Shown here: one piece after another, positions 17,353 through 21,384 of the stretch
How positions within the stretch are numbered: the stretch's first letter is position 1
Layout: each line of letters begins with the position of its first letter
From: Streptomyces akebiae
Lineage (GTDB): Bacteria; Actinomycetota; Actinomycetes; Streptomycetales; Streptomycetaceae
Direction of reading: 5' to 3'
NCBI RefSeq assembly: GCF_019599145.1
Contig: NZ_CP080647.1
Coordinates: 3,224,001 to 3,288,000, forward strand
Length of the DNA stretch: 64,000 nucleotides
Program-made: the position numbers and the translations under genes
Notes under the pieces: generated by a model
Told to the model about the DNA's origin: nothing
What the model saw: only the letters and a program-made list of their open reading frames with translations
Databases searched by the model: none

Positions 17353-18177
17353 GTGACCTCCCCGAACACCCGTCGGCTCGCGGCCGACGCGGGGCTGCTC
17401 GCCATCGCCGCGGCGTTCGTCCTCCCGCTGGCCTGGGTGATCCTCTCGTCGGTGGACCCGCGGGCGGACCTGACGGTGAAAGTCCCGGACGGCGTGACCC
17501 TGGACAACTTCGACGCGGTCCTGACCCCGGAGATCACCTTCACGCCGATGCTGAACAGTCTGCTGCTGTGTGGCGGGGGGACTGTGCTGACGGTGATATG
17601 CGCGGCCCTGGCGGCCTACCCGTTGTCGAGATTCCGCTCCCGCCTGAACCGCCCCTTCCTCCTCACCATCCTCTTCGCGACGAGCCTCCCGATCACGGCG
17701 ATCATGGTGCCGGTGTACGCGCTCTTCGTCCAGGTGAACCTGATCGACACCATGCAGGGCACGATCTTCTTCTTCGCCGCGTCCCAATTGCCGTTCGCGA
17801 TCTGGCTGATGAAGAACTTCATGGACGGGGTGCCGAAGGAACTGGAGGAGGCGGCGTGGACGGACGGCGCGTCGTCGCTCCAGTCGCTGGTGCGGGTGGT
17901 GCTGCCGCTGATGGGGCCGGGCGTCGCGGTGGTGACCGTCTTCTCGTTCGTGATGATGTGGGGGAACTTCTTCGTTCCGTTCATGCTGCTGCTCACGCCT
18001 GAGCAGATGCCGGCTGCCGTGAGCATCAATGAATTCTTCGGGAATCGGGGGACGGTGATCTACGGGCAGCTGGCGGCGTTCTCGGTGATCTATTCGACGC
18101 CGGTGGTTTTGTTGTATGTGGGGGTGGCGAGGCGGTTGGGTGGGGGGTTTGCTCTGGGTGGGGCGGTCAAGGGGTGA
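17353..18177 (+). CDS. Sugar ABC transporter permease (MalG-like)
   Basis: GTG 17353 has GGAGG at about 17338-17342, and the gene starts 5 bp after the first permease stop. The 274-aa protein has six membrane segments and the EAA loop ELEEAAWTDGASSLQSLVRV. It is the second subunit of the heterodimeric channel. Its last codons overlap, on the other strand, the end of a degraded TPR gene (18172-18386). Confidence 0.9.
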   Translation: MTSPNTRRLAADAGLLAIAAAFVLPLAWVILSSVDPRADLTVKVPDGVTLDNFDAVLTPEITFTPMLNSLLLCGGGTVLTVICAALAAYPLSRFRSRLNRPFLLTILFATSLPITAIMVPVYALFVQVNLIDTMQGTIFFFAASQLPFAIWLMKNFMDGVPKELEEAAWTDGASSLQSLVRVVLPLMGPGVAVVTVFSFVMMWGNFFVPFMLLLTPEQMPAAVSINEFFGNRGTVIYGQLAAFSVIYSTPVVLLYVGVARRLGGGFALGGAVKG

Positions 18178-18386
18178 GGAGTTGCTCGAGGGCTGCGGCT
18201 CGGGTGCGGGCTTCCGCGGTTTCAGCGGGCTGGTCGGCTCGGACGTAGGCGTCTACGGCCTGGAACCAGTGGGCACGGCTTCAGCAGGACGTCGGGCGGC
18301 CGCATGGGCCAGGGCCAGGTTCTGCAGCGTGGCGGCTGCCCAGAACCAGTCCCGCGAGCCGGTACCCATCTCGCGCCCCTCGACCA
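18172..18386 (-). pseudogene. Degraded C-terminal fragment of a TPR-type protein
   Basis: The minus strand encodes EMGTGSRDWFWAAATLQN then LALAHAAARRPAEA, and after a one-base shift near 18275-18285 continues as AHWFQAVDAYVRADQPAET and ARTRAAALEQLLTP before a TGA inside the permease end. The helical repeat pattern resembles the last TPRs of HTH- or STAND-type regulators. An in-frame stop lies just upstream and no N-terminal part is present, so it is a remnant truncated and frameshifted. Its position beside an intact TPR-containing conflict gene suggests this is an insertion hot spot for such genes. Confidence 0.55.
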
Positions 18387-18431: not shown

Positions 18432-19310
18432 GTGCCGGAGACTCACCCCACCGTCCTCGTCCTGACCGCGCTCGCGCTGGAGTACGCCGCTGTGCGTCCC
18501 CACATCGAGGACCGGGAGGAGCTCGTCCACCCTGACAACGCCGGAGCCCGAGTGGAGCGGGGCAGGCTCTCCGGCACCGACTGGTACCTCGCCCTCGCCG
18601 AACTGGGCGAGGGCAACAGCAACGCGGCCGCGCTCACCACGCAGATCATCGGCTGGCTGAAGCCGGAGGCGGTGCTGTTCGTAGGCGTCGCGGGCAGCCT
18701 CAAGGCCGACATCGGCATCGGGGACGTCGTGGTCGGCACGAGGGTGTACGGCATCCACGGTGGCAAGCAGACGGAGAACGGCTTCCAGGTCCGTCCCGAG
18801 GCCTGGCCGGTCTCGTACGCGCTGGAGAGCGCGGCGCGTTCCGCGGTGCGGGACATGGACGGCGTACGGGCGCACTTCAAGCCGATCGCCTCCGGTGACG
18901 TGGTCCTGGCCGATGCCGAGTCGAAGATCGCCCAGCATCTGCGCGAGAACTACAACGACGCCGCGGCGATCGAGATGGAGGGTGCGGGCACGTTGCGCGC
19001 CGCCCACCTGAACGGCCAGCTGCACGCGCTGGTGCTCCGGGGCATCAGCGACCACGCCGACGCCGCCAAGCACGAGGCCGACGCGACGGGTTCGCAGGAG
19101 CGGGCCGCCGCCCAGGCGGCCTCGGTGGCGGTGGCGACGCTTCGGAAGCACCGGCCGCGCGGGGGCCGCGACGGCTCCTCCGACACCGAGGAGGGACCCC
19201 AACGGGTCGACGGGGACGGCGGAGCCTCGTACGGAGGCGACCACATCGACCTCCGGGGCGGCCCCTTCCACGGACCCGTCATCGGCAAACAGCTCGGACA
19301 CCGGCCGTAG
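18432..19310 (+). CDS. PNP_UDP-type nucleosidase, N-terminal part of a split nucleosidase-STAND-TPR protein
   Basis: GTG 18432 lies 6 nt after TACCTT, a probable leaderless start. The first about 230 aa form a 5'-methylthioadenosine/S-adenosylhomocysteine nucleosidase-like domain: VLTALALEYAAV, the ligand loop VGVAGSLKADIGIGDVVV, and AIEMEGAGTLRAA plus GISDHAD near the active site. Residues about 265-285 are GDHIDLRGGPFHGPVIGK, a linker of a type I recall from actinobacterial STAND conflict proteins. The frame then stops at TAG 19308-19310, whereas the +1 frame continues without interruption into an NB-ARC-TPR protein that has no usable start of its own. The two were probably one protein; the domain would be the nucleotide- or nucleoside-cleaving effector. 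Confidence 0.8.
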   Translation: MPETHPTVLVLTALALEYAAVRPHIEDREELVHPDNAGARVERGRLSGTDWYLALAELGEGNSNAAALTTQIIGWLKPEAVLFVGVAGSLKADIGIGDVVVGTRVYGIHGGKQTENGFQVRPEAWPVSYALESAARSAVRDMDGVRAHFKPIASGDVVLADAESKIAQHLRENYNDAAAIEMEGAGTLRAAHLNGQLHALVLRGISDHADAAKHEADATGSQERAAAQAASVAVATLRKHRPRGGRDGSSDTEEGPQRVDGDGGASYGGDHIDLRGGPFHGPVIGKQLGHRP

Positions 19311-21384
19311 CGGCACGCTCCACGGTCCGGTCCCGGTCGCGACCACCACCCTCCCGCCCCGCCCTCCCGGCTTCACCGGCCGCACGGCGGATCTGGACCG
19401 CCTGCTCCCCCATCTGGCCCCCACCTCGGACGAGAGCGCCCCGCTGCTCTTGGCCGTCACCGGCATGGGCGGCGTCGGCAAGACGGCCCTCGCGTTGGAG
19501 TCGGCGCACCGGGCACGGGCCGAGGGTTGGTTCCCCGGCGGGTTCCTCTTCGTCGACCTGCGCGGCTACGACGACGACCCGGCCACCGCCGACCAGGCCG
19601 TCGTGGCCCTGCTCGACGCGCTGGGCGTACGCGGCTCTGATCTGCCACCGACGACGGCACGCCAGTACGACACCTTCCGCACGCTCCTCGCCCAGCGGCA
19701 CGACCGCACGCTGCTGATCCTGGACAACGCCTCGGACCCGTCCCAGTACCTCCCCCTGCTCCCCGGCACGGATCACCACCGGGTGCTGATCACGTCCCGG
19801 GAGCGCCCGGACGCGCTCCCGGTACGCGTCATCGCACTCGAAGCGCTCGACCCCGACGAGTCCGCCGCGCTGATCACCCGCGCCCTGCACTACGCCGACG
19901 AACGCGACGACCGCCCGACTCGTGAACCGGACGCCCTCCACGAACTCACCGCCCTCTGCGGCCACTTGCCCCTCGCACTCCAGATCGCGGCGGCGACGCT
20001 ACGCCGACGCCGCCACCGACACGAGGGAATCGCGTCGCTGGTGGAGGAGATCAGGGCTGCCGGGGACCCGACGACCGCACTCGACAACGGCAGTCCCGGG
20101 ACGGACCTGTACGGGCGCTCGCTGGTCCTGCGGCCGGTGCTGGAGACCTCGTACCACCGACTGCGGGAGGACCGGGCCCGGTTGCTGCGCCTGTTGTCCC
20201 TCGCTCCCGACTCGGAGACGACCACGGAGGCGGTGGCCGCGCTGGCCGACGCGGACACGACCTCCGTGCTCGCCCCGTTGGAGTACCTGGCCGCCGCCCA
20301 CCTGGTCACACCGGTCCGGGACGACCGGGCGCAGGGCTCGATGCCGCGGTGGCGGTTGCACGACCTGGTGCGGGCGTACGGCATGAGTGTGGTGGCGGGG
20401 GACGCGGGGTTGCGGAGGGAGGGGGAGGCCGCGCGGCAGCGGGTGCTCGCGTTATACGTGCGGTGGGCTGACGCGGCGACTCACCGGCTGCGCCGGGTTG
20501 CCGGCGGGCAGGACTCGCAGGGCCGGTTCGTGACCCGGCAGAAAGCGCTGGAATGGCTGGACCGCGAGCGCGCGGGGCTGGTGGCGGCAGTGCGGTGGGC
20601 GGCAGAGGAACCTTTCACGGCGGCAGCGGTGGAACTGGCCTCCCACCTGGCGATGTACCTGGAGTGGCGGCGCTTCTTCGACGACTGGATCACCGTGGCC
20701 GGTATCGCGCGGAGTGCCGCCCACCGGTCCGGTGACCGCATCGCTGAGGCCCGCGCGTGGGACCACCTGGGTATCGCCATGCGGGACACGGGTCGGGCGA
20801 AGGAGGCGGTTGACGCCCACACCCGTGCCCTCGCCCTGTTCAGGACCAGCGGTGGCCACGCCGGTGAGGCCCGCTCCTGGAACAACCTCGGCCTCGCCCT
20901 GCTGTCGGCACGTCGGCTCAAGGAGGCCGCCTCCGCCCACACTCAGGCCCTCGAACTGTTCCGGGCCGTCGGCGACCGTCTCGGCGAAGCCGACGCGTGG
21001 GGCAGCCTCGGTATCTCTCTGGGGGCGGCGGGGCGGCCGGAGGAGGCGCTCACCGCCCTCGCCCGCGCCCGCGACCTGTACCAGGCCGTCGGGGACCGTC
21101 TCGGCGAAGCCAACGCGTGGGCCAACCTCGCCTTCGCCCAGAGGGACGCGCGCCGGATGAACGAGGCGATCGAGGCATACGGCAGATCCCTGGAGATTTT
21201 CGAGGAGTTCGAGAACTGGTACGGGGCCGGTCAGACCCTCGAACACCTGGCCATGATCCACGAGGCGGTCGGCGCGCGGGACCAGGCCCGCGCCCACTAC
21301 CTCCGAGCCTGCGACGCCTTCACCCTCGCCGACGCACCCGATCGGGCCACCCGCGCCCGAGCCGCCGCGGCAGCCCTGGCGTAG
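19309..21384 (+). CDS. STAND (NB-ARC) ATPase with C-terminal TPRs, read only through a +1 frameshift
   Basis: The frame is open from upstream of the nucleosidase stop and continues as SGTLHGPVPVATTTLPP, then PPGFTGRTADLDRLL, the usual lead-in to a STAND NTPase. Walker A is GMGGVGKTALALE, Walker B LLILDNASD, sensor LITSRERPD and GLPL-like GHLPLALQIAA; a winged-helix region follows, then about six TPRs from about 20730 to 21330 (for example ARSWNNLGLALLSARRLKEAA). There is no ATG or GTG in frame before the P-loop; TTG 19450 sits inside the first beta strand without a ribosome-binding site. Slippage at CCG-TAG-C (19305-19311) would give a 983-aa fusion. Codon 20452-20454 is TTA, so translation should need the bldA tRNA. 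The family senses invasion by repeats and activates an effector. Confidence 0.75.
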   Translation, partial: SGTLHGPVPVATTTLPPRPPGFTGRTADLDRLLPHLAPTSDESAPLLLAVTGMGGVGKTALALESAHRARAEGWFPGGFLFVDLRGYDDDPATADQAVVALLDALGVRGSDLPPTTARQYDTFRTLLAQRHDRTLLILDNASDPSQYLPLLPGTDHHRVLITSRERPDALPVRVIALEALDPDESAALITRALHYADERDDRPTREPDALHELTALCGHLPLALQIAAATLRRRRHRHEGIASLVEEIRAAGDPTTALDNGSPGTDLYGRSLVLRPVLETSYHRLREDRARLLRLLSLAPDSETTTEAVAALADADTTSVLAPLEYLAAAHLVTPVRDDRAQGSMPRWRLHDLVRAYGMSVVAGDAGLRREGEAARQRVLALYVRWADAATHRLRRVAGGQDSQGRFVTRQKALEWLDRERAGLVAAVRWAAEEPFTAAAVELASHLAMYLEWRRFFDDWITVAGIARSAAHRSGDRIAEARAWDHLGIAMRDTGRAKEAVDAHTRALALFRTSGGHAGEARSWNNLGLALLSARRLKEAASAHTQALELFRAVGDRLGEADAWGSLGISLGAAGRPEEALTALARARDLYQAVGDRLGEANAWANLAFAQRDARRMNEAIEAYGRSLEIFEEFENWYGAGQTLEHLAMIHEAVGARDQARAHYLRACDAFTLADAPDRATRARAAAAALA

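Follow-up and report, generated by a model that had tools for sequence, protein, structure and literature searches.

Conserved +1 split of a nucleosidase-STAND-TPR gene in Streptomyces akebiae and its relatives, and its probable translation by recoding at a stop codon

The split gene in the Streptomyces akebiae window

We analyzed a stretch of 64,000 nucleotides (nt) from the 10.5 Mb assembly of Streptomyces akebiae (GCF_019599145.1, contig NZ_CP080647.1, positions 3,224,001 to 3,288,000), which as a whole is called the window here, for a gene that lies in two reading frames. The first open reading frame (ORF 1) encodes a nucleosidase-like protein with a C-terminal motif and ends at a TAG codon. 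The second (ORF 2) encodes a STAND protein with a TPR array and continues in the +1 frame (Table 1). The split is conserved in Streptomyces. From the sequences we propose that it is probably read by programmed +1 recoding at the stop codon, which would yield both a short protein of nucleosidase and motif and a nucleosidase-motif-STAND-TPR fusion.

From position 19012, directly after TGA 19009-19011, the +1 frame stays open up to the stop of ORF 2. Its earliest start-like codons include CTG 19393, TTG 19450 and ATG 19465, the last of which encodes the methionine of the P-loop GMGGVGKT. Across the 150-nt segments starting at 19122-19302, GC at third codon positions ceases to favor the 0 frame and comes to favor the +1 frame. 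A product translated across both frames would have 983 amino acids (aa; 292 + 691). An initial annotation of this DNA had given the coordinates and frames of the split gene, the length of 983 aa and the lack of ATG or GTG ahead of the P-loop in the downstream frame, and our ORF and codon scans (19012-19392 for the latter) agree with it in all these respects.

Table 1. Features of the split gene and its upstream neighborhood in the window
Feature	Position	Strand	Remarks
ORF 1, 0 frame, MTA/SAH-nucleosidase-like effector	18432..19310	+	GTG start, TAG 19308-19310, 292 aa
C-terminal motif GDHIDLRGGPFHGPVIGK of the nucleosidase, putative signalling or assembly motif	19236..19289	+	outline kept in split relatives
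Candidate recoding site CCG_TAG_C	19305..19311	+	commonest in the family: CGG_TAG
+1-frame stretch without ATG, GTG, TTG, CTG, ATC, ATT, ATA	19012..19392	+	codon scan
+1-frame linker GTLHGPVPVATTTLPPRPPG into STAND	19312..19371	+	recognizable in relatives; length changes by whole codons
ORF 2, +1 frame: FTGR box, NB-ARC NTPase, TPR array	19372..21384	+	TAG 21382-21384; own start not evident
Walker A (P-loop) GMGGVGKT	19462..19485	+	M encoded by the earliest ATG in +1
Possible relic, C-terminal end of a divergent STAND-TPR gene	18110..18280	-	weak tblastn matches

ORF 1 matches the family PF01048 over residues 8-237 with 116.2 bits (gathering cut-off 25.1) and the PADLOC model "Effector, PN-superfamily" with 82.7 bits. 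Solved MTA/SAH nucleosidases (MTAN) match it with an E-value of 1.9e-14. The protein shares the fold family of these enzymes, and the stretches around the catalytic acids of the active site align. Against the NCBIfam equivalog models of the housekeeping MTAN, however, it scores below the cut-offs, with 85 bits where 169 are required and 64.6 bits where 73.8 are required, so that the family does not fix its substrate. The C-terminal motif follows the pattern GDHIDL...FHGPVIGK. A second nucleosidase of the same genome (L044, G000:C1:5855085-5855792) is 43% identical and consists of one open frame of 387 codons.

In ORF 2, NB-ARC (PF00931) was found with 46.4 bits (cut-off 23.5) and TPR_12 (PF13424) with 95.9 bits. 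With an NB-ARC NTPase including a P-loop and a C-terminal repeat sensor, it is a protein of the STAND/NLR type. The nearest solved sequence relative of this half is AfsR (8k60, E 3e-47), a transcription regulator of the SARP family, whereas here the partner of STAND-TPR is a nucleosidase. The SARP part of AfsR is N-terminal. The alignment with Streptomyces AfsR begins a few residues ahead of the FTGR box, and that with Apaf-1 starts at about the same residues. Among the best 120 of 1042 homologous proteins found, not all of which need come from split loci, 64 start between the FTGR box and the P-loop, 35 at the P-loop methionine and 17 earlier, and 4 are fused to PF01048. The segment alignable with AfsR and Apaf-1, which belongs to the domain, is thus truncated in 99 of the 120. 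Annotated starts at the methionine within Walker A are a recurring oddity of annotation, which could help in finding more members.

Conservation and selection of the split

Related loci were collected from a scan of one genome per species (42 loci), a scan of the genus (84 of 392 genomes with a nucleosidase match; 20 more stretches taken in) and a scan of the family, in which a nucleosidase was matched at 1e-40 in 19 of 200 genomes, including 10 that belong to two other genera. Copy L043, which is the window itself, was excluded before counting, and near-copies among the split loci (fewer than 6 differences over 600 nt) were merged. A pattern of the N-terminal STAND box, searched in the +1 frame, identified 46 non-redundant Streptomyces loci in which this box follows the stop of a nucleosidase, and their nucleosidases are 54-77% identical to that of the window. 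The family search added L145 and L146 to these as further split loci, whereas its L144 and L148 proved to be copies of L011 and L021 and were struck out. The 42 loci classified as "other" were left unmerged and contain repeats (e.g., L022/L088 and L013/L065).

The split runs in one direction. In a control over all three frames, which covered all 64 loci with a motif-bearing short nucleosidase, near-copies included, 50 have the STAND box in the +1 frame, two have it in frame 0 and 12 have it in no frame. The two frame-0 loci (L013/L065) are copies from one genome; as their HGP linker has stayed in +1, the frame-0 box points to a later break. Of the 12 loci without the box, four keep the HGP linker in +1 ahead of a STAND that is broken or cut off, six lack a STAND and two are two-gene forms. 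In the latter, the STAND gene lies in the +1 frame (L079) or the +2 frame (L042, Nocardiopsis) relative to the nucleosidase. Among the motif-bearing loci that were not counted as split, the linker is in +1 and the STAND is broken in L006, L013/L065, L054 and L070, the contig ends in L078, no STAND was found in L009, L059, L060, L071, L074 and L075, and L079 and L042 carry two genes. No STAND is recognizable directly downstream of the six nucleosidases without one, and these effectors may persist alone or with another sensor.

Outside Streptomyces, the STAND linker after the stop is absent in the 10 loci of two other genera. Plasmid records gave 9 matches to the query, none of which covers more than 80% of it. 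Of 20 further STAND loci, 14 were inspected informally for an upstream ORF ending nearby; these bear other N-termini, some of them with a motif, and the junction is absent from all 14. Several Streptomyces STAND genes (L124, L125, L134, L135, L136 and L141) start with GDHVEFRGNVFLGPVTG, which is related to the motif, or with the distinct motif NTINGGVFFHAVIQGRDITVQLPP. An ORF upstream of the STAND in L135, in a different frame, ends close to a similar motif (NTISGGTQNGPVLQGRDF). In P0009, listed as Streptomyces xylophagus, the N-terminus in the STAND frame contains GGTHIDF, the initial half of the motif, which looks as though the frame change had been moved by a small indel.

The coding signal changes frame near the stop. 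Third-position GC was averaged over 45 loci; L051, in which the STAND is broken inside the box, was omitted here and from the counts of starts and spacings. Between 60 and 16 nt before the stop it reaches 0.91-0.95 in the 0 frame against 0.53-0.67; it is level between the frames in the final 15 nt, and from 15 nt past the stop it favors the +1 frame. Both halves are under purifying selection in the pairs tested. In 18 hand-chosen pairs, the uncorrected ratio of nonsynonymous to synonymous differences (pN/pS) is 0.16-0.58 for ORF 1 and 0.25-0.58 for ORF 2, and ORF 2 read in the wrong frame gives 0.81-1.69 (9 pairs).

The stop codon, the frame change and its alternatives

The stop codon of the split loci is TAG in 40 of 46 (TAA in 4, TGA in 2). 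It is preceded by CGG in 28 loci and by CCG, the codon of the window, in one, and the following base is G in 20, C in 16, A in 5 and T in 5. The initial annotation had put the slip at CCG_UAG_C, which is not the pattern of the family, where CGG_TAG is the commonest site. Counts over the 46 loci are not independent; among 27 mutually dissimilar loci, TAG is found in 23 and CGG in 15. As background, 90 other ORFs of the same DNA with high third-position GC were taken, of which 8 end with TAG and 3 have CGG before the stop. This set leaves out the locus's own ORFs, and with them kept TAG is found in 18 of 111. When the last codon encodes arginine, it is CGG in 28 of 34 cases compared to 44% in gene bodies.

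Within the +1 set, 13 different spacings between 55 and 103 nt separate the stop and the FTGR box, all of which keep a single frame relation. Many indels next to the stop have therefore kept the frame, as is expected if translation in the +1 frame already runs at the stop. A start codon shared by the family is absent. We define the start zone as the +1-frame segment that begins 30 nt ahead of the stop and runs up to LPPRP. ATG occurs there in none of the 45 loci, and 28 have neither ATG, GTG nor TTG in it. In 13 loci, the window among them, none of these codons occurs in the whole open +1 stretch up to the FTGR box. Because many relatives keep the break, often with no usable start beyond it, the frame change by the ribosome is probably programmed and would serve to join a toxin-like enzyme with its sensor.

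The relatives with other gene forms bear on the same question. Single-frame fusions with the same joint were found in P0003 (...PPQVHGPVPVATTTLPPRPPGFTGR), in P0016 and in a group of L090, L093, P0087 and P0089. In P0003, P0016 and the L090/L093 group the C-terminal motif is missing. In a tree of 60 STAND domains these fusions nest in the split clade at three places, with some weak forks; it included 41 split rows of at least 250 aa, and P0118 was labelled as fused despite a listed protein cut at the nucleosidase end. L079, which stands beside a split subclade, has separate genes, of which the second starts at an ATG of its own and repeats the motif (MTTAYSGDHADFGGGTFNDSVIGK) ahead of the same HGPVPIATASLP box. 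In L042, the STAND is likewise preceded by a second motif copy. A ribosome that crosses the stop and goes on in +1 would place motif, linker and HGPVP ahead of the STAND in the order seen in L079.

A related motif occurs on sensors as well as on the effector. Among 18 hand-chosen relatives, a divergent STAND-TPR gene lies upstream in eight and no such neighbor was found in ten. All eight divergent STANDs carry a related motif ahead of the STAND, at the very start in some, such as L011 (MSDHVDFQGGKFTGPVIGK) and L008 (SDHIDFRGGQFHGPVIGK), and more diverged and behind an N-terminal extension in L001, L002, L007 and L013. In the window, such an upstream gene would be a relic at best. Its possible remains overlap the upstream ORF on the plus strand that ends at 18177, and match the divergent STAND of L004 with 47% identity over 57 residues (tblastn, E 0.001) and other divergent STANDs with E-values of 0.017-0.2.

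The serious rival to programmed recoding is re-initiation without a standard start. By translational coupling, ribosomes would resume past the TAG from a +1-frame start that is non-standard or little conserved, and the two proteins would meet afterwards. GTG or TTG is present in the start zone of 17 of 45 loci, the two-gene relative L079 has a real ATG, NLR and effector genes with BASS motifs are adjacent or overlapping (PMC7889193, available excerpt), and translational coupling is given as one cause of conserved frame transitions (PMC3711429, available excerpt). On the other hand, the GTG and TTG codons stand at varying, unshared places, most start zones contain none, the frame relation is held at 13 spacings (one broken locus of the split clade is in another frame), and the +1 ORF lacks the motif that the STANDs of the two-gene and divergent forms carry. 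Close relatives with the same stop and independent downstream starts, which the initial annotation had named as evidence against its reading, were not clearly seen: they amount to these unshared codons and to L079, which has a motif copy along with its ATG. All in all, we regard re-initiation as unlikely, though clearly more plausible than the explanations that follow.

The initial annotation had also left open whether the split is a programmed slip or a recent frameshift or sequencing error. The programmed alternative has gained from the kept stop, the +1 relation and the lack of nearby starts, which rule out a sequencing error or recent frameshift; for the family, this explanation is refuted by the 46 conserved loci. 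For the present strain, a recent frameshift, pseudogene or sequencing error is hardly credible either, although breaks are common in raw genomes, several split relatives have a further early break in the STAND, and the STAND of this allele has a higher pN/pS, since the same break recurs in loci with nucleosidases as diverged as those given above and purifying selection was found in the pairs tested. It is very improbable, too, that the frame is changed in another way, by transcriptional slippage or by a tRNA reading four bases. Such a mechanism would suit the fact that no classical slippery codon explains the shift, but a long homopolymer is absent at the site of the window (some relatives have four to six G), and the only tRNA found in the window by ARAGORN is an ordinary tRNA-Gly(CCC) 41 kb away; tRNAs elsewhere were not sought.

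Several observations weigh against programmed recoding itself. TAG also terminates 3 of 6 related nucleosidases without STAND, the preference for CGG_TAG could partly stem from coding in the +1 frame (Gly-Arg), and the codon before the stop is of 13 kinds among the 46 loci. The start zone of 17 loci does hold GTG or TTG, as mentioned. A Shine-Dalgarno stimulator is unsupported: the mean pre-stop affinity to the anti-Shine-Dalgarno sequence is -5.8 kcal/mol compared to -6.7 kcal/mol for shuffled sequences, weaker on average than all 200 shuffles, though some members have GGAGG. No RNA structure stood out on the 3' side of the stop, with a mean z of +0.36 over 46 loci, or on its 5' side. By reasoning, the tRNAs for CGG and CCG re-pair poorly in the +1 frame, so that classical P-site slippage as in prfB is unlikely. 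Slippage of this type was rejected, as the pre-stop codons are of the wrong kind (CGG in 28, CCG in one and 11 other codons in the remaining loci). The tRNAs reading CGG and CCG carry m1G37, which guards against +1 slips; this is a lead only. An early break interrupts the +1 ORF of 6 of 46 loci (L008, L011, L015, L019, L051 and L057), in L015 near the end of the contig, and third-position GC prefers neither frame 120 to 76 nt before the stop. The STAND of the window has a pN/pS of 0.58 against L001 and 0.53 against L004, compared to 0.41 between L001 and L004, so this allele may be relaxing or under weaker selection. L087, an in-frame fusion that lies outside the split clade with divergent STANDs, has the motif.

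Proposed function and relation to known systems

According to the proposal of programmed recoding, most ribosomes would terminate at TAG 19308 and release the 292-aa nucleosidase ending in GDHIDL...FHGPVIGK, while some would step one base forward at the stop and complete the 983-aa fusion, so that the STAND half would be produced solely through the frame change. The TAG, the best-conserved element of the site, may be the slow step while it awaits release factor 1. The TPR part may sense an infection-related signal, upon which the STAND domain would oligomerize. The fusion would then switch on its own nucleosidase and recruit the more abundant short form via the shared motif, and destruction of a nucleoside or cofactor pool would lead to growth arrest or cell death. 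The domain families and the PADLOC matches suggest that the system is probably a sensor-triggered nucleosidase in abortive phage defence. The shift would set the ratio of sensor to effector, and it would encode the motif once, whereas relatives with two genes encode it twice. The initial annotation had seen in the shift a limit on a toxic effector. This direction is probably wrong: as the 0-frame product already holds the entire nucleosidase, it is the sensor-bearing fusion that the shift would ration.

The best known comparison is prfB, the gene of release factor 2, in which a +1 shift likewise takes place at an in-frame stop and is conserved across species. The prfB site consists of CTT_TGA with a Shine-Dalgarno-like AGGGGG, whereas here the stop is mostly TAG and the preceding codon mostly CGG, without enrichment of Shine-Dalgarno sequences, and the product is an immune-type protein instead of a release factor. 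As far as the available excerpt of a survey goes (PMC12421855), the prfB frameshift is missing from all 2,658 Actinomycetota surveyed, the prfB motif has an efficiency of about 6% in M. smegmatis, and usage of TGA is high in Actinomycetota.

With regard to the motif, the locus resembles the amyloid-type pairs of the BASS and PUASM kind, in which a short motif is present at the C-terminus of an effector and at the N-terminus of an NLR protein encoded by an adjacent gene. For BASS, the excerpt available describes recurrence of the effector's C-terminal motif at the N-terminus of the NLR from an adjacent or overlapping gene (PMC7889193), and for the fungal PUASM motif, its occurrence on PNP_UDP effectors (PMC9815663, likewise in excerpt). 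Here, in contrast, one motif copy would be common to two products of one gene by way of a frame change, and the likeness is one of arrangement. The single-chain fusions P0003, P0016, L090 and L093 have the same domains and joint, but in one frame and without the motif.

A description of a frameshifted STAND or nucleosidase gene was absent among the best-matching titles and abstract openings under open licence, with subscription papers and preprints outside the search. The parts of the gene are of known kinds, and the recoding site may well represent a new type. More tentatively, the family may represent an undescribed form of +1 recoding tied to UAG and release factor 1 in organisms whose usual stop codon is UGA, which would work without slippery codon, Shine-Dalgarno sequence or RNA structure, would be built into a family of bacterial NLR-like immune genes, and would place one motif in two products to fix how much of the effector bears the sensor and how much is free. 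In-frame fusions would then have arisen repeatedly upon loss of the motif. We give this wider proposal somewhat less than an even chance.

If the proposal holds, a family of immune-type genes in Streptomyces is currently annotated as two pieces, of which the NTPase half often starts within the P-loop. It would mean that a conserved +1 recoding exists in a phylum that has lost the classic one, at a site lacking the classic elements, and would thus offer a handle on other ways in which ribosomes change frame. For NLR systems, it would illustrate how a single mRNA can fix the amount of sensor relative to effector, and with one short motif in both products it would make the templating between bacterial NLR proteins and their effectors testable.

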